The notes under the pieces are model-generated. The model was not told where the DNA came from, did not search any database, and saw only the letters and a list, made by a program, of their open reading frames with translations. The position numbers and the translations under genes are program-made. Shown one piece after another: positions 2,188 to 10,341 of a DNA stretch of 10,375 nt. Source of the DNA: an uncultured Collinsella sp. (GTDB lineage Bacteria; Actinomycetota; Coriobacteriia; Coriobacteriales; Coriobacteriaceae); assembly GCA_900759435.1 (NCBI GenBank), contig CAAEVD010000087.1, positions 1 to 10,375 on the forward strand, given 5' to 3'. How positions within the stretch are numbered: position 1 is the first letter of the stretch; each line of letters starts with the position of its first letter.

Positions 2188-2772
2188 ATGAAATTTAAAG
2201 ATTTAAAACTCGTGCAAAAGTGGCGTGAATATGCCGGCCCAAAGGATGAGCGCCTGGAGGCTGAGAGCGCGAAGATCTACAAGATTGGTTTCGTGCTGCT
2301 TTCGTTTGGCATGTTGATGATCTTTTTCTACCAGTTTATAGCTCGACAGGTTGCGTGGGTTCACAGCGACGCCAGTGAAATGCCGCATGGCTTTGCAACG
2401 CCGTTCGAGGCAGCCATGTATTTGTGGCTCGTTCTCGTGATGTTGATTTGCGCAGGACTGCAAACGCGGAAGGGCTATGTCGATACCAATCGTTTTGGGC
2501 AAACCGAGCATCTTCCTGTTGGATATTTCCTGCTTCTCAGCGGTCTTAGCGGCGCCGCGTTCGCGCTTGTCATTGCCGCAATGCGCTGTATCGCTGAGGC
2601 GCAGATCGTACCGCTCGAAAGCGTCTTTTGGTTGGCGAACCTGGCCACGGGCGTGTTCTGCGGTGCGATGATTTTCGCGGCCACGTTTGCTGCCCTGTGC
2701 GCAACGTTTTTCACGGCGAAAAGACGCCGTGCCAAGCTCGAGGCAGAACTCGACTCCTCTGACGACATCTAA
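2188..2772 (+). CDS. Four-helix integral membrane protein of unknown function (194 aa)
   Basis: No catalytic motif is visible. The N-terminus is charged (about 1-30, with PKDERLEAESAKIYKIG leading into the membrane). Four hydrophobic segments follow at about residues 32-52, 74-91, 111-132 and 146-176, and the C-terminal tail is basic and then acidic (KRRRAKLEAELDSSDD). The arginine- and lysine-rich stretches after segments 2 and 4, with an even number of helices, suggest both ends are cytoplasmic. AGGAG (2177-2181) overlaps the stop of the XRE gene and serves as ribosome site, so the pair is tightly coupled. The layout resembles the common pairing of a small XRE regulator with a multi-pass DUF protein (for example the DUF6773 or DUF3169 types). 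I cannot confirm the family from sequence alone. A role in envelope stress or as the regulator's signal partner is only a guess. Confidence 0.85.
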   Translation: MKFKDLKLVQKWREYAGPKDERLEAESAKIYKIGFVLLSFGMLMIFFYQFIARQVAWVHSDASEMPHGFATPFEAAMYLWLVLVMLICAGLQTRKGYVDTNRFGQTEHLPVGYFLLLSGLSGAAFALVIAAMRCIAEAQIVPLESVFWLANLATGVFCGAMIFAATFAALCATFFTAKRRRAKLEAELDSSDDI

Positions 2773-2862: not shown

Positions 2863-5800
2863 CTAGCGAGGCTTATCCGAATTGACCTCATTGGCGGTGT
2901 CGGTTTCGAGCGCCGTGCGGCGGGCACTGTAGGCGACGAGGCCGGCCCCTGCCGCGGCGAGTGCTGCTGCGGCTGCCGTAAGGGGAGCGTTGACATCGCC
3001 CGTGCCCGCAAGCGCGCCCGCTTTTCCAGAGCGCTTGTTATTGCCGTGAGCCTTGCCACTGCCAGAGCCACTGCCGCCACCGGAGCTGCTTCCGCCGGAG
3101 CCGCCGCCCTTGTCAGTACCGCCGCCACTCGAGCCGCCACTGCCGTCCGCCGTCATCGGTGCATCGTGAAGCCCCGTCGTATCCGCGCTGTCGCATACGC
3201 CGACCTGAACTTCTGAGCGTTCGCATGCCGCGTCGGGCACGTGGAGCTCGTGCAGTACAGCACCCAGCGCCGAGTTCGCGCCCGGTCGAATTTCTTCGAG
3301 CGTTACGGGATCGAGCGCCACCAGATTACGCGCCTTCGCATACAGCGTTACGCGTTTGCCCACTTCGTCGCTCCAACTCTCGGGGATGGCGAAGCTCATA
3401 CGGAACTGTGCCGTGCAACCCGGTGCCAGCACGGCGTTGCCGTTGTCGGCTACCAGCGGGTGCGTTGCAAAACGCGTCCCCAGCGTCTCGAGCGCGTACT
3501 TCACGTGCGCCATGTCGTTGGCCGAAGTGTCCTCGGCAAGCTCTGGATCGTAGATCGAAGCCATGCGCGCGTTCGCTCCGAATCCGATGGATGCGCTGGA
3601 GAACGGCTGGCTGGAGCCCTCTCGGTACAGATCGATCGTGCCGGCGGTCAGCAAGGTGTTGCCGTCGTTTCGCACCGTGACCATGAAGGATTCGCCTGCT
3701 GCTCCGGGCACCACCGCGCCCGAGGTAGCGACCGCGCCCGTCGGAGTGGCACACGCCACCAAGGGCACTTCGATGCCGTGCAGCTCTGCCTCGCTCTTCT
3801 CCGCGCTCACAATGTGCGTGGCGAGCGCGGAGAGCATGCCTCCCGATGTCAAAAATGTCGTTATCTGATCGACGGGATGGTCCAGCTCGCACATCACGAA
3901 CGGCTCCGTGAACAGATCACCTGCCAAGGTGCTGGCGAAGATGCGGAAGTGCTTGCCCATCACTGCTACTGGGTTGCCTTCTTCGTCGTAGGTTTGTCCC
4001 ACCTTGCCATCGGTGTTCTCTACATAGAGCACGCACCTGCCGTTGTTGCTTACGCTAAACGATGCCGGGCCACAGCCTGCGGCACCCACGGGCTGCGTTG
4101 CAAATGCCGATGCGCCTCGCGTCCAAGTAATATGCTGCAGCTGTTCGTTGACGGTTGCCAAAAAGCCCGAATGCTGTGGCCACGGCGCCGCACGGGGTAC
4201 CGTGGCGTCTGGTGGCATAACGCCCCAGCCCGCAATGGACTGGCCGATCACGGCGTACGGTGCGCAGCCGCAACCGTCTGCGGTCTCGTACGCAACGGGC
4301 ACCACCATTTTGCCGTTGATATTCTCGGGCTCGCCCAGCTCGATACTCGACGGTGCTTGCGGAAAGCGGAGAACTTGGCGGAACGTCAGGCTGTCGCCCG
4401 AAACGTCCGACCACAGGGTAAAGCACTCCAGCGCAACCTCAGCCTCGCTGCCGAGCGCCTTTTCTGCGGTGGTTCCGCGGCGGTGGAGGTAGGCACCCGA
4501 CAGGCGCCCGTCGACCAGCGTCTTGCCCACCGTGATACGCGGGCACTGCAGGCAATGGTAGCCATCCTCTTGCAGGCGGCCGCGCGAGATGCTGCGCCAT
4601 GACGTATGCGACACCACGCGAACTCCGTCGTTGCTTATGCGCAGGCGCACAACGGACAGTATGCCGGATGTGCTCGCCGCATCGAAAAGGGTGTTGTCGC
4701 CGTCGGGGCGCTCGCCCGAGACCAGCAGCACGTAGGCGTCCTGGTTTCCTCTTCCGTCCGTGTATTCCACCACGTCGAAGTCGTAATCGTATATGCCGTC
4801 GCGCTCCACGTCGCCCTCGCCAAACCCAAGGGGAAAGTCCACGGGCGCGGGAGCGGACCACGTGCCGTTTGCCTTTGTGTGCACCACCAGGCGCGAGCGG
4901 CCATTGTCGCCGTAGCGCACCGAGGCGATACGGAACAGGCATTCTACGCCGGCGATAATCGCTAGCTTCATGTGGGCTTCGCTGAGCACGCCAGTAAACA
5001 GCACGTTGTCGCTCGAGGGCTTGATGCCGCCACGCTCGTCCTCCGATACACCAACAGAATTGGCGTTGGGGTCCGCAACAGCGTTCGTCGCCTGCCCGAT
5101 ATAGGTGTACTCGTACATCGACGCGGCGTTTTCGCCGTTCCCTATCAGTGCATGGACGAAATGCTCGATCTGTCCCGTGTCGTCGCTTTCTGCATCTGCC
5201 TCGAGCTCAATGCGCGTGACCGCTTGATCCCAATCGCGCACGACAGGCGCGACGTTTACGGCAGTGGCCTTAACCTCGGCGCGTGCGAGCAGCTCGGCGT
5301 TGGTGACGATGGTGGCCGATGCGATAAATTGCGGCACGCCGTCCGCCTCGATGTTGCCGGGCGTGCCGAAGCAGGCATCCAACGTGTAAGGCGTATCTCC
5401 ACCCAATGCGAGCTCAGAGCGCTGGAGCACATACTGGTTGCCATTGTTCACCGACATATTCCACGAATCGAGGAGTGTGGGCCACGACCCCGACCAAGCC
5501 TTGGTGGTCCACTTGAACATTACGAATTGGAGTATCACATCGACATCGACGTCAGCACCTACGCGCAGTCGCGGAAGCTGGTGTCCATCTGCCTTCTCGT
5601 ACCCAATGAACAGCGTGAGGGATGCGGCGCCGCGCACGGCAGACGAAGCGATGCCTGCAACGCCGGCGCCAAAGGTGACGGCAAGCCCAATCTGGATGGT
5701 GAACGAGCCCGAGGTGTTTGAATAGTCGAGCGAAATGTTTTTAAAAAACGCCGCGCCGCTGCCGTGCGTGTGGGCACCCACGGCGAGCGCCAGCTTCGCC

Positions 5801-7248
5801 AGCACCCAGGGGTTGACGTTGAGGAAAAACGGCACCGGTCCTAGGGTAAACTGCTCGGTCCAATTGAGGTCGGTTCTTACCTGGAAGAGGGCCTTAATAT
5901 TGCCGTATGCGGGATCGTTGTTGTTGCCCCAGGTTTTGCCCACCCAATCGTAGGCGAGCGAGCCATACAGCTGTGTGGCGATATCCATCGTGAACAGCGG
6001 CGTGCAATGGTGGCGAAGGAGCTTGGTATTTCTTGGATCGGTTCCCGAACCGGCACTCATACTCTTGTACTGATTCCACTTCCCCTCCATCTCGTCGAGG
6101 TAGCGGTTTGCCTGCTTGGCGCCCGACTCACGCGGTGACTTCTTCCAGTACTCCGGATCCGGATTGCCCGAATCGTTCATGTAGCCGACCGGTTTGTATC
6201 CTCCGCCAAACAGCACGTACCCGGCAAAAGAGAAATCGAACAAAATGGGGAACGAGGGCATCCAGCACGTGAACTTATTGCCGCCGATGCCGGGAAACGC
6301 CGCTGGGAAATCAAACGGAGTGACCTCTTGGTCCATGGTAGTGGGGACGATAGTGGTCGAGCCCGATTCCGCCTTTGCGGCCGGCGCGGTGACAACGGCC
6401 ATGGGGGATGAGAGCGTGTAGGTTTTGCCCTGATAGTCGAGCACAAAGCGCAGCTTGCACCCTTCTTCCAGAAGGTTTGACGCTGCATCGAGGAACGTGT
6501 CTTCGAGCGTGAACGTCGCAAGATTATCCGCGCCCGATGCACTGGCCTTGACTTGGCCAATTTGCGTGACGGTTTCGGGTGAGCTGCCCGCGGCAGGCGT
6601 CACTTTATTGATATGCAACGTTGCCTGCCCGCCCTGCGGCAGATGGGCCTGCACGGTAAAAGCGTGCGTGTTGGGCTGGTCGTTTCCGACGTCGTCCTTA
6701 TGAATTGCCATGAACGTAGCGTCGGCGTACTGGATGTCCCATTCGTCGAATGTGAGCTGGCGAAAGTACGGCTCGCCGTCAGAAAGCGGACGCGTTGGCG
6801 CGGTTATGGCGGTGCCACCCTGGATACGCGCGAGGGGAATCTCGACATCGCGGTAGCCCGCCATGCTAATGGAGATGCCGCCGTTAAAGTCGTACGCGTC
6901 GAGAAGCGTCGTCTCGTCCACGTAGCCTTCCGAAAGCGGCGCGACCTCAAAGATGGCCGTGCCTTCGTCATCGGTCGTGGCGGTGAGCTGCTTGCCTGCG
7001 GCATAGCGCGATGTGAGCGTGACCTGGGCACCCGTGATGGGCGTATTCTTGTTGGCGACGTCGACCACGACCACACCGAACATGGTGCGCGAGAGAACGA
7101 GCACCCTGAAGGGGTCTTTTTCGTCGGCATAGGCTTTGGTGGGCGCGAACGGCAATATGAAGGCGTTTGCGCTTCCCGACACGCGCGGCAACATAATGCT
7201 CGCCAGCGAGGACGCTCCGGCAACAAGTAGCGAACGGCGATCAAGCAT
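2863..7248 (-). CDS. Giant Tat-exported, sortase-anchored surface protein (1461 aa), function unknown
   Basis: The start is the ATG at 7248: GGGAG (7259-7255) stands 6 bases before it and a twin-arginine leader (LDRRSLLVAGASSLA) follows at once. The frame is also open to a TTG at 7344, which has no ribosome site. Visible order: leader 1 to about 29 or 42; an Ig/prealbumin-like region about 45-140 (ITGAQVTLTSR...TTDDEGTAIFEV); a second strand-rich region about 190-290; an unassigned region rich in Trp, Phe and Gly about 320-600, with alternating-hydrophobicity strands at 513-580. Then come propeller-like strands about 745-1160, including RLVVHTKANGTWSAPAPV (786-803), which resembles a BNR/sialidase-type blade. 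A CARDB-like Ig region follows at about 1180-1340 (ESFMVTVRNDGNTLL). A Gly/Ser stalk lies at 1369-1398 and the LAGTG sorting signal at 1413. No catalytic set is recognised, so adhesion or glycan binding is a guess. The upstream LuxR gene, 156 bases away, is a candidate regulator. Confidence 0.88.
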   Translation of the reverse strand: MLDRRSLLVAGASSLASIMLPRVSGSANAFILPFAPTKAYADEKDPFRVLVLSRTMFGVVVVDVANKNTPITGAQVTLTSRYAAGKQLTATTDDEGTAIFEVAPLSEGYVDETTLLDAYDFNGGISISMAGYRDVEIPLARIQGGTAITAPTRPLSDGEPYFRQLTFDEWDIQYADATFMAIHKDDVGNDQPNTHAFTVQAHLPQGGQATLHINKVTPAAGSSPETVTQIGQVKASASGADNLATFTLEDTFLDAASNLLEEGCKLRFVLDYQGKTYTLSSPMAVVTAPAAKAESGSTTIVPTTMDQEVTPFDFPAAFPGIGGNKFTCWMPSFPILFDFSFAGYVLFGGGYKPVGYMNDSGNPDPEYWKKSPRESGAKQANRYLDEMEGKWNQYKSMSAGSGTDPRNTKLLRHHCTPLFTMDIATQLYGSLAYDWVGKTWGNNNDPAYGNIKALFQVRTDLNWTEQFTLGPVPFFLNVNPWVLAKLALAVGAHTHGSGAAFFKNISLDYSNTSGSFTIQIGLAVTFGAGVAGIASSAVRGAASLTLFIGYEKADGHQLPRLRVGADVDVDVILQFVMFKWTTKAWSGSWPTLLDSWNMSVNNGNQYVLQRSELALGGDTPYTLDACFGTPGNIEADGVPQFIASATIVTNAELLARAEVKATAVNVAPVVRDWDQAVTRIELEADAESDDTGQIEHFVHALIGNGENAASMYEYTYIGQATNAVADPNANSVGVSEDERGGIKPSSDNVLFTGVLSEAHMKLAIIAGVECLFRIASVRYGDNGRSRLVVHTKANGTWSAPAPVDFPLGFGEGDVERDGIYDYDFDVVEYTDGRGNQDAYVLLVSGERPDGDNTLFDAASTSGILSVVRLRISNDGVRVVSHTSWRSISRGRLQEDGYHCLQCPRITVGKTLVDGRLSGAYLHRRGTTAEKALGSEAEVALECFTLWSDVSGDSLTFRQVLRFPQAPSSIELGEPENINGKMVVPVAYETADGCGCAPYAVIGQSIAGWGVMPPDATVPRAAPWPQHSGFLATVNEQLQHITWTRGASAFATQPVGAAGCGPASFSVSNNGRCVLYVENTDGKVGQTYDEEGNPVAVMGKHFRIFASTLAGDLFTEPFVMCELDHPVDQITTFLTSGGMLSALATHIVSAEKSEAELHGIEVPLVACATPTGAVATSGAVVPGAAGESFMVTVRNDGNTLLTAGTIDLYREGSSQPFSSASIGFGANARMASIYDPELAEDTSANDMAHVKYALETLGTRFATHPLVADNGNAVLAPGCTAQFRMSFAIPESWSDEVGKRVTLYAKARNLVALDPVTLEEIRPGANSALGAVLHELHVPDAACERSEVQVGVCDSADTTGLHDAPMTADGSGGSSGGGTDKGGGSGGSSSGGGSGSGSGKAHGNNKRSGKAGALAGTGDVNAPLTAAAAALAAAGAGLVAYSARRTALETDTANEVNSDKPR
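2917..3012 (-). other. LAGTG cell-wall sorting signal
   Basis: The encoded C-terminus has LAGTGD at residues 1413-1418, a hydrophobic stretch at about 1420-1441 (APLTAAAAALAAAGAGLVAY) and then SARR. This is the three-part layout of a sortase substrate. LAxTG in place of LPxTG is known for class E sortases of high-GC Gram-positives. The tail after the arginine pair is 17 residues, longer and more acidic than usual. No sortase gene is in the window. Confidence 0.8.
3055..3144 (-). repeat. Gly/Ser low-complexity stalk
   Basis: Residues 1369-1398 of the surface protein are almost only Gly and Ser (GGSSGGG, GGGSGG, SSSGGGSGSGSG), interrupted by TDK. At DNA level this is a run of GGC/AGC-type codons prone to slippage, so length could vary between strains. 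Functionally it is a flexible wall-spanning spacer just before the sorting signal. Confidence 0.8.
7123..7248 (-). other. Twin-arginine (Tat)-type signal peptide
   Basis: The first 42 residues hold MLDRRSLLVAGASS, a good match to the (S/T)RRxFLK pattern apart from the weaker D and the missing K. A modest hydrophobic core (LLVAGASSLASIML) and possible cleavage sites after SANA (about 29) or KAYA (about 41) follow. The moderate hydrophobicity and paired arginines favour Tat over Sec, but a Sec leader with RR cannot be excluded. Confidence 0.65.
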
Positions 7249-7278
7249 CTTTGGCTCCCATCCCGCAGGTATCGGTGG

Positions 7279-7404: not shown

Positions 7405-8409
7405 CTAGCGCAACATGTGGGCAACCAGCTCGGCGCGAGTTCCGATACCAAGCTTGGCATACACTCCTGATAGGCGGTTTTTGACGGTGCCCGGCGATAC
7501 TCCCATATGGCGTGCGATTTCGGCGTTGGTCCACCCACGACAGGCGAGCATGGCCATGGTGAATTCCGTGGTCGTTAGATCGTCGGCCACGTCCTCGCCC
7601 GAATCAGGGTTGTGGATGCGCCGCCAGCCGTAGCTGAAGCGGTACGTGATCTCGATGATGCGCGCGAAGTCGTCTGGGTATTGCGTTTTTAGGCACGCCT
7701 CGATGAGCCCCTGTAAAAGGCCGTGGTGCTCGCCAATGAGCTCGATAAGGCCGTCGGGGCGCGCAATGCCCCAAGCGGCTCCGAAGTGTGCCTTTGCGGC
7801 GTCGATGTCCTTGAGGCTCATGCATGCCATGGAGGCTGCCAGGTGCAGGAACAGTTCCGAGATCGGATAACTTCCCTGTTTCATAATCAGGGCGTTTTCC
7901 GCCATGCCCAGGCTGCGGCCGTATTCGCCGCGCAGATACAAGGCGTGCGCCATCACGTAGCTGGCGAACAGGCGCAGGCCTTCGGGCAGATGCGCCGCAA
8001 GCGGATAAAACTCTTCGGCAGAATACGGGGAAGGCAAGTGCAGCAGGACACTCGCGGCCGAGGCGAACAGGATATGCGTGGCGTGGATGGCGGGCGATTC
8101 CTCGTCGGCTGGCGTATCGAGGATGCCAGTAAGGCACCGGCGGGCGTCGGCGATACGGTTGAGCGACAGACTGGCGTATCCGCAGATAAAGCATGCGGAA
8201 TAGCGCAGTGTGGGATCGGTGGCGTCAAGATGGGGGCGCGCCGTCTTGGCAGCGAGGGCGGCCTGTCCGCGAAAGTACAGCGCTTCTGCCGTGGCAATGG
8301 CGTGCGAATCGGGGTCGGAAATGCCTGCAACCGCAGCGTCAATCTGCCCCGGCACAAAGGCGGTGCACATCAACGGCATGGGAACGCGTGGGTAGCCATC
8401 GCAGTCCAT
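7405..8409 (-). CDS. LuxR-type transcriptional regulator with TPR-like N-terminal region (334 aa)
   Basis: The C-terminal LuxR/GerE HTH (about residues 277-334) is clear: LTTTEFTMAMLACRGWTNAEIARHMGVSPGTVKNRL and then YAKLGIGTRAELVAHML. The first 270 residues are alanine-rich helices in repeated pairs, for example about 36-60, 68-97, 106-125, 145-173, 184-213 and 221-240. They look like degenerate TPR repeats, as in MalT-like or SARP-like regulators. No receiver Asp pocket, autoinducer domain or P-loop is visible, so the signal is unknown. The start at 8409 has GGGAG (8421-8417) 7 bases ahead; the open frame continues to 8592 inside the kinase gene but has no better start. The gap to the kinase stop is 68 bases without a clear terminator, so it may belong to the same transcript. 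The next gene downstream is the surface protein, its likeliest target by position. Confidence 0.88.
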   Translation of the reverse strand: MDCDGYPRVPMPLMCTAFVPGQIDAAVAGISDPDSHAIATAEALYFRGQAALAAKTARPHLDATDPTLRYSACFICGYASLSLNRIADARRCLTGILDTPADEESPAIHATHILFASAASVLLHLPSPYSAEEFYPLAAHLPEGLRLFASYVMAHALYLRGEYGRSLGMAENALIMKQGSYPISELFLHLAASMACMSLKDIDAAKAHFGAAWGIARPDGLIELIGEHHGLLQGLIEACLKTQYPDDFARIIEITYRFSYGWRRIHNPDSGEDVADDLTTTEFTMAMLACRGWTNAEIARHMGVSPGTVKNRLSGVYAKLGIGTRAELVAHMLR

Positions 8410-8477
8410 CTTCCATCTCCCAACAGCTGGCAACAATAGCAGCAATTGTACTCCTGTTGCTCGGGACCCCTTTCGTT

Positions 8478-9629
8478 TTACTGTTCGGTTAACGCTGCGG
8501 ATCGTTTTGGAAGGCTTACGAGCATGGTGGTCCCGTTCTCGGAACTTGTTTCGACCTCTACTGTGCCACCGTGAAGCGCTGCAATCTCCCAAACGAGTGC
8601 TAGCCCGAGTCCTGCGCCGCCGTATGCCCTGCTGCGGGATTTGTCTAGACGAAAGAACGGTTGGAAGATGCTCTCACGGTACTGCTTGGGTATTCCCGGG
8701 CCCTCATCTTTGACTCGTAGGAGCACGTGGCTGTCGCTGTCGCTGATGGAGACGTTGACAGTCGAGTCGGTGCGGCTGTAGCGGATAGCGTTTTCGACCA
8801 GGTTGAACACCAGCCGGTACAGTAGCGTGTCGCTCCCGATTACTAAAGCGTCTCCAGCACAATTGAGGGCTATGCCCTTATTTTCGGCAAGTGGCGTAAG
8901 GTCGGTGAGGACCTCTTCGGACAAGGGGCCAAGTTCAACATCGTCTTCGCAAGGAACGCTGCGGAGCTCACTCATCTCGAGTAATACCTTGGTCATCCGC
9001 GACATTCGCTCGGTTTGTTCTTGTAGCAGGCCGAGCAGCTCGGCTGTTTCGGGTTGCAAACCGGAGTGCTCGGAGATGAATAGTTCAATCTGTGCTTGCA
9101 TAAGGGCGAGTGGGGTGCGCAGCTCGTGTGCGGCGTTGCCGGTAAACTGACGCTGTGCAGAGAACCCTTCGCCAAGACGAGCGATCATGTCGTTGAAAGA
9201 GGCGCTGCATCGTTGTAGCTCGGTGGGCATATCTTCATTGAGTCTGATTTCGCTTAGGTTGTCAGGCTGCACGCGCTCAACCTGGGCTGCAAAAGCCCGT
9301 AGCGGTTTGAGTGCACGGCCGCTCACAAAGTATGCCAGCACGCCGCCAAGGAGTGTGACTCCAGCCGTGATGTACCAAGCTGTCGTGCCAAAAGATTCCT
9401 GTGCGTCGTTTACGACGATCGTGACCTTGTCATCGGGGGTTGCTTTCGTTGGGTCGAACACCTGGGGCGAATCCGCGCCGGCAGCGTTAAAGGCCGAGAT
9501 GTCACTGCCGATGGCATCCATATAGCGCATGCCCGTATAGCCGACCAGGCAGTTCGTCAGCACGCACGCCGCACACGTCAGCAGCGCCGTCATGATCGTT
9601 ATGCGCCATTGCAGCGAAAGCCTTTTCAT
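8478..9629 (-). CDS. Sensor histidine kinase (383 aa)
   Basis: This is a membrane-bound two-component sensor that autophosphorylates on His and passes the phosphate to the response regulator encoded just before it. Two membrane helices lie at about 10-30 and 84-103 and enclose a small outside loop of about 50 residues. A short HAMP region (about 104-155) follows, then the HisKA domain with AAHELRTPL (phosphorylated His168) and the ATPase domain. That domain has the N box FNLVENAIRYS (Asn276, Asn280), G1 DEGPG (308-312), the F box FQPFFRLD (322-329) and G2 GGAGLGLAL (337-344). All catalytic motifs are intact. Its ATG overlaps the response regulator's stop in an ATGA (9629-9626), a sign of translational coupling. 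The outside loop is too short for a standard PAS or Cache domain, and the ligand is not predictable. Confidence 0.95.
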   Translation of the reverse strand: MKRLSLQWRITIMTALLTCAACVLTNCLVGYTGMRYMDAIGSDISAFNAAGADSPQVFDPTKATPDDKVTIVVNDAQESFGTTAWYITAGVTLLGGVLAYFVSGRALKPLRAFAAQVERVQPDNLSEIRLNEDMPTELQRCSASFNDMIARLGEGFSAQRQFTGNAAHELRTPLALMQAQIELFISEHSGLQPETAELLGLLQEQTERMSRMTKVLLEMSELRSVPCEDDVELGPLSEEVLTDLTPLAENKGIALNCAGDALVIGSDTLLYRLVFNLVENAIRYSRTDSTVNVSISDSDSHVLLRVKDEGPGIPKQYRESIFQPFFRLDKSRSRAYGGAGLGLALVWEIAALHGGTVEVETSSENGTTMLVSLPKRSAALTEQ

Positions 9630-10300
9630 TCGCTATCCTCCATAACGTAGCCCTCTCCAATCCGATTGCGAATCGGGTCGTATCCCAAAGCGCTGCGCAA
9701 CTTTTTTCGGAGCGACGAGATGTGAACGCGGGTTGCGTTGCTAAAGCTGTTCACGCTGCTATCCCAAACGTGCTCGATAAGCTCCTCTTGACTTATCGGA
9801 CGCCCCTGATTAAGCATCAGGTATTCCAAGATTCCCGTTTCCTTGCGTGTAAGAGATAGAGCCTCTCTGTCCACGGAAGCGATGCGCGCCTTGGTGTCAA
9901 AGCGGAGCTTTCCGCAGGCTAAAACTATGTCGCTTTGTGTAAAGCGTCTGAGGGTAAGGCTGCGAATTCTTGCCGCAAGCTCGTCCAGATGAAACGGCTT
10001 GGTGAGGTAATCGTTGGCCCCGGCATCGAGTCCGGCGACTTTATCGGATACTTCGCCACGTGCGGACAGAATCAGTACCTTAGTCTCGCAGTCAGTTTTC
10101 CTAAGTTCCCTGAGTACGGTCATGCCGTCGATACGGGGAAGGTTGAGGTCGAGTACCACGAGGTCGAAGGCCTCAACGTCCAGTAGGTCGAGCGCCTCCT
10201 GTCCGTCGTGACAGCAGTCGACACTGTACGCCAAGTTTCGCAAGCTGCGCGCGATTGCGTCACACAGCGCCTGCTCGTCCTCGACGATCAAAATACGCAT
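9626..10300 (-). CDS. OmpR-family response regulator (224 aa)
   Basis: This is the DNA-binding partner of the kinase encoded next. The receiver domain (about 1-115) has the acidic pair E7/D8, phosphoacceptor Asp51 (VVLDLNLPRIDG), Ser79 (ILSAR) and Lys101 (YLTKPF). The winged-helix output domain (about 125-222) shows LTRKETGILEYL, the helix QEELIEHVWD, the recognition helix ATRVHISSLRKKLR and the wing IRNRIGEGYVM. The ATG at 10300 is chosen over one at 10318 because AAGGAG (10312-10307) stands 6 bases before it and the receiver fold begins directly after it. QseB/PmrA-like in layout, but the target genes are not visible; the downstream LuxR and surface-protein genes are plausible members of its regulon. 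Confidence 0.95.
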   Translation of the reverse strand: MRILIVEDEQALCDAIARSLRNLAYSVDCCHDGQEALDLLDVEAFDLVVLDLNLPRIDGMTVLRELRKTDCETKVLILSARGEVSDKVAGLDAGANDYLTKPFHLDELAARIRSLTLRRFTQSDIVLACGKLRFDTKARIASVDREALSLTRKETGILEYLMLNQGRPISQEELIEHVWDSSVNSFSNATRVHISSLRKKLRSALGYDPIRNRIGEGYVMEDSE

Positions 10301-10341
10301 AACAGTCTCCTTGCACATTTCAAATCGCGCTTAACACGGAT

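Follow-up and report, generated by a model that had tools for sequence, protein, structure and literature searches.

A 1461-residue Collinsella protein predicted to pair a conserved Tat-type leader with a sortase-type sorting signal

The Gene and Its Terminal Signals

The stretch analyzed here (the window) comprises 10,375 nucleotides of contig CAAEVD010000087.1 from an uncultured Collinsella sp., and it carries a gene for a very large protein in which a twin-arginine translocation (Tat)-type leader appears to be paired with a C-terminal sortase signal. The open reading frame was located on the minus strand (7248..2863), with an ATG start at 7248 and a TAG stop at 2865-2863, and encoded 1461 residues; the plus-strand reading of 2863-7248 was interrupted by stops. 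The leader started with MLDRRSLLVAG, and LAGTG occupied residues 1413-1417; D1418 came next, then an Ala/Gly-rich helix and, at 1443-1444, RR. The initial annotation had placed the gene at these coordinates with RR at residues 4-5, an LAGTG tail, a helix and a closing RR, all of which were confirmed. The mature part (residues 42-1416) had a calculated mass of 145.6 kDa and isoelectric point of 4.8. The gene and its terminal features are as follows.

2863..7248, minus strand: whole gene, 1461 residues, 154 kDa precursor (open reading frame list and sequence; same start Met in Collinsella copies)
7126..7248, minus strand: signal peptide of Tat type, residues 1-41, with cleavage predicted after residue 41, between AYA and DE (RR invariant; conservation of A39 and A41 90% or higher over 42 representatives)
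7234..7239, minus strand: twin-arginine codons, residues 4-5
3016..3144, minus strand: Gly/Ser-rich linker, residues 1369-1411, probably wall-spanning (function proposed from the sequence)
2917..3012, minus strand: sorting signal LAGTG D, helix and YSARR, residues 1413-1444 (tail in 46/51 representatives; four columns at least 90% conserved)

No match of the window protein to Pfam or NCBIfam exceeded the curated cut-off, and no PDB sequence matched below an expectation value (E) of 0.05. A PRK12370 match (E 0.055) was taken as chance.

Relatives of the Window Protein

Three protein searches and additional whole-genome searches supplied the relatives. The nearest genome examined (G001) carried a gene copy at 94% DNA identity, and 19 named loci from Collinsella aerofaciens and other Collinsella carried copies at 90-95% protein identity. 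A hidden Markov model from alignment A2 matched 234 sequences. A search with A2 at E 1e-10 placed the family in 23/43 genomes of the genus and, for two further families of this order, in 21/138 and 26/140 genomes. Alignment A1 (E 0.001) matched 36/197 genomes of the order, 7 of these 36 by the tail only, with E values of about 3e-4 to 6e-4. Full-length relatives had 1,424-1,539 residues; longer open frames exist, and those above 1,600 residues extend between successive stops and could exaggerate protein size. Representatives were obtained by dereplication at 70% signal-peptide identity (n = 49, or 47 without L058 and L178, which were counted only because these Collinsella loci were cut short). 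Both protein ends were reached by 132 rows and were kept in relatives down to about 26% identity. As read from these alignments, both signals are conserved across a family that reaches other families of the same order.

Conservation of the Twin-Arginine Leader

The twin arginine was present in all 182 rows reaching its columns and in 49/49 representatives. The remaining 52 of the 234 sequences were short of these columns, being starts at contig or locus edges, late-called Met starts (P0042, P0043, P0045, P0058 and P0075) or later pieces of interrupted or fragmentary copies; no family N-terminus without RR was found among them. In the same 49 representatives, K made up 2673/4965 of K plus R in the mature parts (54%) and 22/58 in the n-regions, yet it occurred at 0/98 of the RR positions. 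Hence, the invariance of RR does not reflect composition, because K was frequent elsewhere in the same proteins. The surrounding residues were also restricted: S, T or D preceded RR in 49/49 representatives, RRxF occurred in 46/49 and [ST]RRxF in 43/49. Over 42 representatives, only 57 columns showed conservation of 90% or more, and R4, R5 and F7 belonged to these; the window itself has L at position 7. Moreover, the conservation of A39 and A41 fitted cleavage after AYA41, and we infer that signal peptidase would cut there.

The Tat consensus naming, a loose Tat pattern (RR.[FGAVML][LITMVF]) and the hydropathy scale used below are general background; the consensus SRRxFLK is also given in a published abstract. 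Two other anchored proteins of G001 (L083 and L087) also fitted the loose pattern by eye, so that a bare motif search is insufficient. This observation, together with the failure of Tat profiles to recognize the window protein, speaks for ordinary export through the general secretory (Sec) pathway, in which the RR pair would be incidental to a short basic n-region and the chain would be threaded unfolded, as in other sortase substrates. Furthermore, most sortase substrates are reported to use Sec, and high G+C content to favor R-rich sequences (Gallego-Parrilla et al., 2024; PMC10924467). However, RR was never replaced by K in proteins where K is the commoner of the two in mature parts, the flanking S, T or D and the F second after RR were retained as counted above, and a hydrophobic peak inside the protein was conserved as well. 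Sec export is thus judged quite unlikely.

A Tat lipoprotein reading was rejected, the lipobox being absent in the 49 representatives. Separately, five signals in G001 (L091-L095) exceeded the TIGR01409 cut-off, and each was followed by a GC lipobox by eye in proteins resembling substrate-binding or related lipoproteins. This suggests that Tat-exported lipoproteins are common in Collinsella.

Conservation of the C-Terminal Sorting Signal

A sorting-type tail was present in 176/183 rows with a natural C-terminal end and in 46/51 representatives, under a lax rule that required [TMA][GSAN][DE] followed by a hydrophobic stretch and one or more K or R residues. A narrower count gave 43/44 representatives; it took only rows aligning at two tail columns and could favor intact tails. 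The five misses were P0079, which had another ending, and L030, P0053, P0073 and P0076, which were interrupted, out of frame or fused. P0079 kept the Tat signal and ended in a fibronectin type III-like domain. In the 44 closely aligned representatives, the tail core was TGD in 32, TAD in 5, TSD in 2, MGD in 2, TND in 1, AGD in 1 and none in 1. The second motif residue was A in 21/43 and P in 18/43 representatives. D1418, Y1440, R1443 and R1444 also belonged to the 57 conserved columns. In G001, LAxTGD was the motif of 7/13 anchor-profile matches.

These tails were also considered as plain membrane anchors, that is, the protein would be exported by Tat and its C-terminal helix would remain membrane-bound, sortase transfer being slight or absent. 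The relatives without TG (TAD, TSD, TND, MGD and AGD) or without the signal (P0079) and the scores of the anchor profiles, which were below the cut-off, point in this direction, and Tat substrates with tail anchors have been recognized as a class (PMC10924467). Against it, pentapeptide, helix and charged end were kept together in the 46/51 representatives, a Gly/Ser linker precedes the signal, and other anchored proteins of G001 share LAxTGD. A sortase was also present in nearly every family-bearing genome searched (65/66, below). Tail anchoring without sortase transfer therefore seems unlikely.

Tat and Sortase Machinery in Relatives

Seventy family-bearing genomes were listed, and 66 of them (50 + 16) were searched for both machines, with G227, G228, G179 and G373 left out. 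tatC was found in 64/66 (48/50 and 16/16), and a sortase in 65/66 (49/50, 48 of these over the cut-off, and 16/16). Both were present in 26/26 of the good-quality genomes among the 50. In a wider set of 58 relatives, tatC was found in 55 and a sortase in 55. The check for tatC proposed in the initial annotation was borne out in the nearest genome, G001, which also contained two sortases, one of class C beside pilin genes and one of class B type. The latter matched a PDB chain of the SrtB family at E 4.8e-25. Two genes before this class B-type sortase gene (L037:6214-7212), a 1780-residue open frame with a PNTGD tail was observed (L037:77-5419), with partial matches to alpha-glucosidase and lacto-N-biosidase models.

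The class E sortase that the initial annotation had expected was not seen: 0/58 relatives (G001 included) exceeded the NF033747 cut-off, whereas 1 of 14 control genomes, Corynebacterium glutamicum being among those searched, did. Class E was accordingly rejected as the partner. Twelve of the 50 genomes had a single sortase match, and in the 7 that were classified, TIGR03064 (class B) was the best model in 7/7 and over its cut-off in 4/7. Because of these sole sortases and the precedent of Clostridioides difficile, a class B-type sortase is likely the best candidate for the anchoring enzyme. The alternative that a class E (LAxTG) or class C pilus-type sortase does the anchoring draws on LAETG being a class E motif in Streptomyces (PMC10924467), on the class C enzyme of G001 and on one genome (G120) whose sole sortase match scores like class C. 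The absence of class E above the cut-off, the position of the G001 class C gene with pilin genes, the class B assignment in the seven classified single-sortase genomes and the interchange of A and P at the second motif place argue against it, making it very improbable. The result suggests that the presence of an LAxTG motif does not necessarily imply a sortase of class E.

Predicted Domain Architecture and the Internal Hydrophobic Region

The body of the protein was divided according to structure models and fold searches as follows; in one of the fold searches, the rows covered mainly model residues 11-245.

6784..7086, minus strand: transthyretin/prealbumin-like domain, residues 55-155
6385..6783, minus strand: macroglobulin-like beta-sandwich, residues 156-288
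5467..6012, minus strand: amphipathic beta region with long strands, residues 413-594, the stretch 520-538 being hydrophobic (model, face alternation and conserved hydrophobic peak)
3823..5001, minus strand: predicted beta-propeller, residues 750-1142
3313..3780, minus strand: immunoglobulin (Ig)-like beta-sandwich, residues 1157-1312 (model strands; blocks of predicted local distance difference test (pLDDT) up to 91)

The Ig-like assignment of residues 1157-1312, which contain a conserved RNDGN motif, is a prediction from the model strands and not from a fold-search row. Residues 413-594 formed seven strands of 16-26 residues in the structure model, with pLDDT blocks of 50-81. The hydropathy peak of the 500-556 region was 1.75 in the window and had a median of 1.68 over 41 representatives, the region being present in 41/42. 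The peaks inside eight other anchored proteins of G001 were 0.76-1.28; these controls came from one genome, and two of them (L037 and L088) had no visible leader. Within the long-strand region, a conserved stretch was as hydrophobic as the tail anchor itself.

The propeller resembled the Photorhabdus propeller lectins PHL/PLL and sialidase propellers, differing from them with 11% identity and a root mean square deviation of 5.6. From this likeness of fold only, the surface role is probably binding.

The initial annotation had linked folding before export to many cysteines. CxxC at C899-C902 and CGC at 993-995 were located where it had placed them; however, 17 cysteines in 1461 residues are hardly many, and C899 was kept in 11/40, C902 in 19/40, C993 in 8/34 and C995 in 3/36 representatives. 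Since the CxxC and CGC positions vary, a cysteine or metal-site reading was dropped.

Proposed Route of Export and Anchoring

The best explanation is that the protein is exported by Tat after folding in the cytoplasm and is then likely joined to peptidoglycan by a class B-type sortase, which we consider probable. From the leader and tail sequences, we infer Tat dependence and wall anchoring of the window protein. TatC would read the RR signal, and the chain, predicted to be mostly beta, would fold in the cytoplasm and cross through the Tat translocase in the folded state. The Ala/Gly-rich tail would stay in the membrane after this passage, and signal peptidase would remove the leader. Subsequently, the sortase would cut between LAGT and GD and transfer the protein to peptidoglycan, and the Gly/Ser linker would carry the propeller head outward through the wall. 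Tat rather than Sec would be used because the long-strand region holds an anchor-like hydrophobic stretch: threaded unfolded via Sec, this stretch could stall or enter the membrane sideways, and prior folding would keep it buried. In the pairing proposed by the initial annotation, the leader and tail held up by their conservation and by the tatC and sortase genes of relatives, while the need for class E and the cysteine argument fell away.

Several observations weigh against this explanation. The window motif DRRSLL is short of the S/T-RR-x-F consensus, the weaker DRR being typical of its own clade. The Tat signal profiles TIGR01409 and PF10518 did not recognize the window protein, and the G001 copy was not among the 9 TIGR01409 matches of that genome; among members of alignment A2, PF10518 matched 1/16 (E 0.01) and TIGR01409 none. 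These profiles are recognizers of Tat signals and do not define a Tat substrate. Similarly, the window protein scored 11.3 with PF00746 (cut-off 20) and the G001 copy 13.3 with TIGR01167 (cut-off 15.9), both of which recognize anchor signals and do not define a sortase substrate. P0079 was without a sorting signal, the deviating tail cores listed above occurred in other relatives, and the ends of L128 and L130 had little charge. The evidence for tatC and the sortases comes from relatives, the nearest being G001 with its gene copy at 94% identity. The G001 class B-type sortase, with TIGR03064 as its best model, reached 144.2 bits against a cut-off of 153.75. The sole sortase match of G120 (93.3 bits) scored like class C, not B; G120 was among the five single-sortase genomes left unclassified, and its family gene copy was broken by a stop. 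The structure models were modest in confidence (mean pLDDT 62.5 and 66.5). Finally, at about 146 kDa the cargo would be at least as large as the biggest Tat substrates that a 2026 review names (PMC13186574).

A bolder extension, which we offer only tentatively, is that this family contains the largest single-chain Tat substrates recognized, that Tat serves not cofactors but the hydrophobic beta region, which Sec would be unable to pass unfolded, and that a class B sortase takes over a folded, tail-anchored protein. If the proposed route holds, export after folding followed by sortase anchoring would be a standing route for giant surface proteins of gut bacteria. The size limit of Tat cargo would also be pushed up, and there would be a physical reason for the use of Tat without a known cofactor.

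Gene Neighborhood and Gene Interruptions

A likely ribosome-binding site was observed before the start codon.

7255..7259, minus strand: GGGAG, likely ribosome-binding site before ATG 7248 (sequence; kept upstream in 19 Collinsella loci)
7405-8592, minus strand: LuxR-type (GerE) regulator, on the same strand and immediately upstream, with a gap of 156 bp
8478-10318, minus strand: pair of a sensor kinase and an OmpR-type response regulator, lying on the upstream side of the LuxR-type gene
2188-2772, plus strand: small probable membrane protein just past the gene end on the opposite strand; DUF6773 match weak and under the cut-off

A match to the LuxR-type (GerE) regulator was present within 19/19 named Collinsella loci, and the regulator may control the surface protein gene. 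The gene was interrupted in several Collinsella copies (L030, L034, L035, L178, L159 and L174) by stops near residue 1213 or 588 or by a frame break near 502-505; in the relative P0074, domains of transposase type were present. The interruptions in Collinsella genomes perhaps reflect frequent loss or switching.

Comparison With Known Systems

The pairing of Tat and sortase signals is already published for other actinobacteria. In a screen of 89,292 genomes for proteins combining a Tat signal with a C-terminal helix, Gallego-Parrilla et al. (2024; PMC10924467) used reporter fusions to validate six proteins, four of them sortase substrates; they considered such proteins possibly abundant in actinobacteria and knew of no earlier description of a natural Tat-dependent sortase substrate. 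The view of the initial annotation that such pairings are unusual was sound until recently, when these four proteins were validated. Their examples include SCO1860-family LAETG proteins and an HtaA-domain LPXTG protein of Streptomyces. Collinsella, Coriobacteri and Eggerthella are not mentioned in the main text of that article, its supplements lying outside the search, and a literature search found no paper on the present protein family, which is not proof of absence.

One likeness between those Tat-dependent substrates and the window family is that no cofactor was recognized. By their description, the two are set apart: the window family is beta-rich, its members occur in Collinsella and in further families of the same order, and its likely partner is a class B-type and not a class E sortase (PMC10924467). 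For the class B system, the closest parallel is Clostridioides difficile, whose sole sortase belongs to class B and has a housekeeping role. Several surface substrates are reported there, some with D after the motif (e.g., SPKTGD), the motif being (S/P)PXTG in contrast to LAxTGD/LPxTGD in the window family (PMC4155245). With regard to size, FdnGH, 142 kDa in two chains, is among the largest known Tat substrates according to the 2026 review (PMC13186574). Compared with these systems, the new elements are the family itself, its size (about 146 kDa mature), the family-wide conservation of both signals, the pairing with class B and the hydrophobic beta region as a proposed reason for folding, which may explain folding before export. 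Because both signals are conserved in a large family of distant relatives, a rarely described signal combination is now open to testing.
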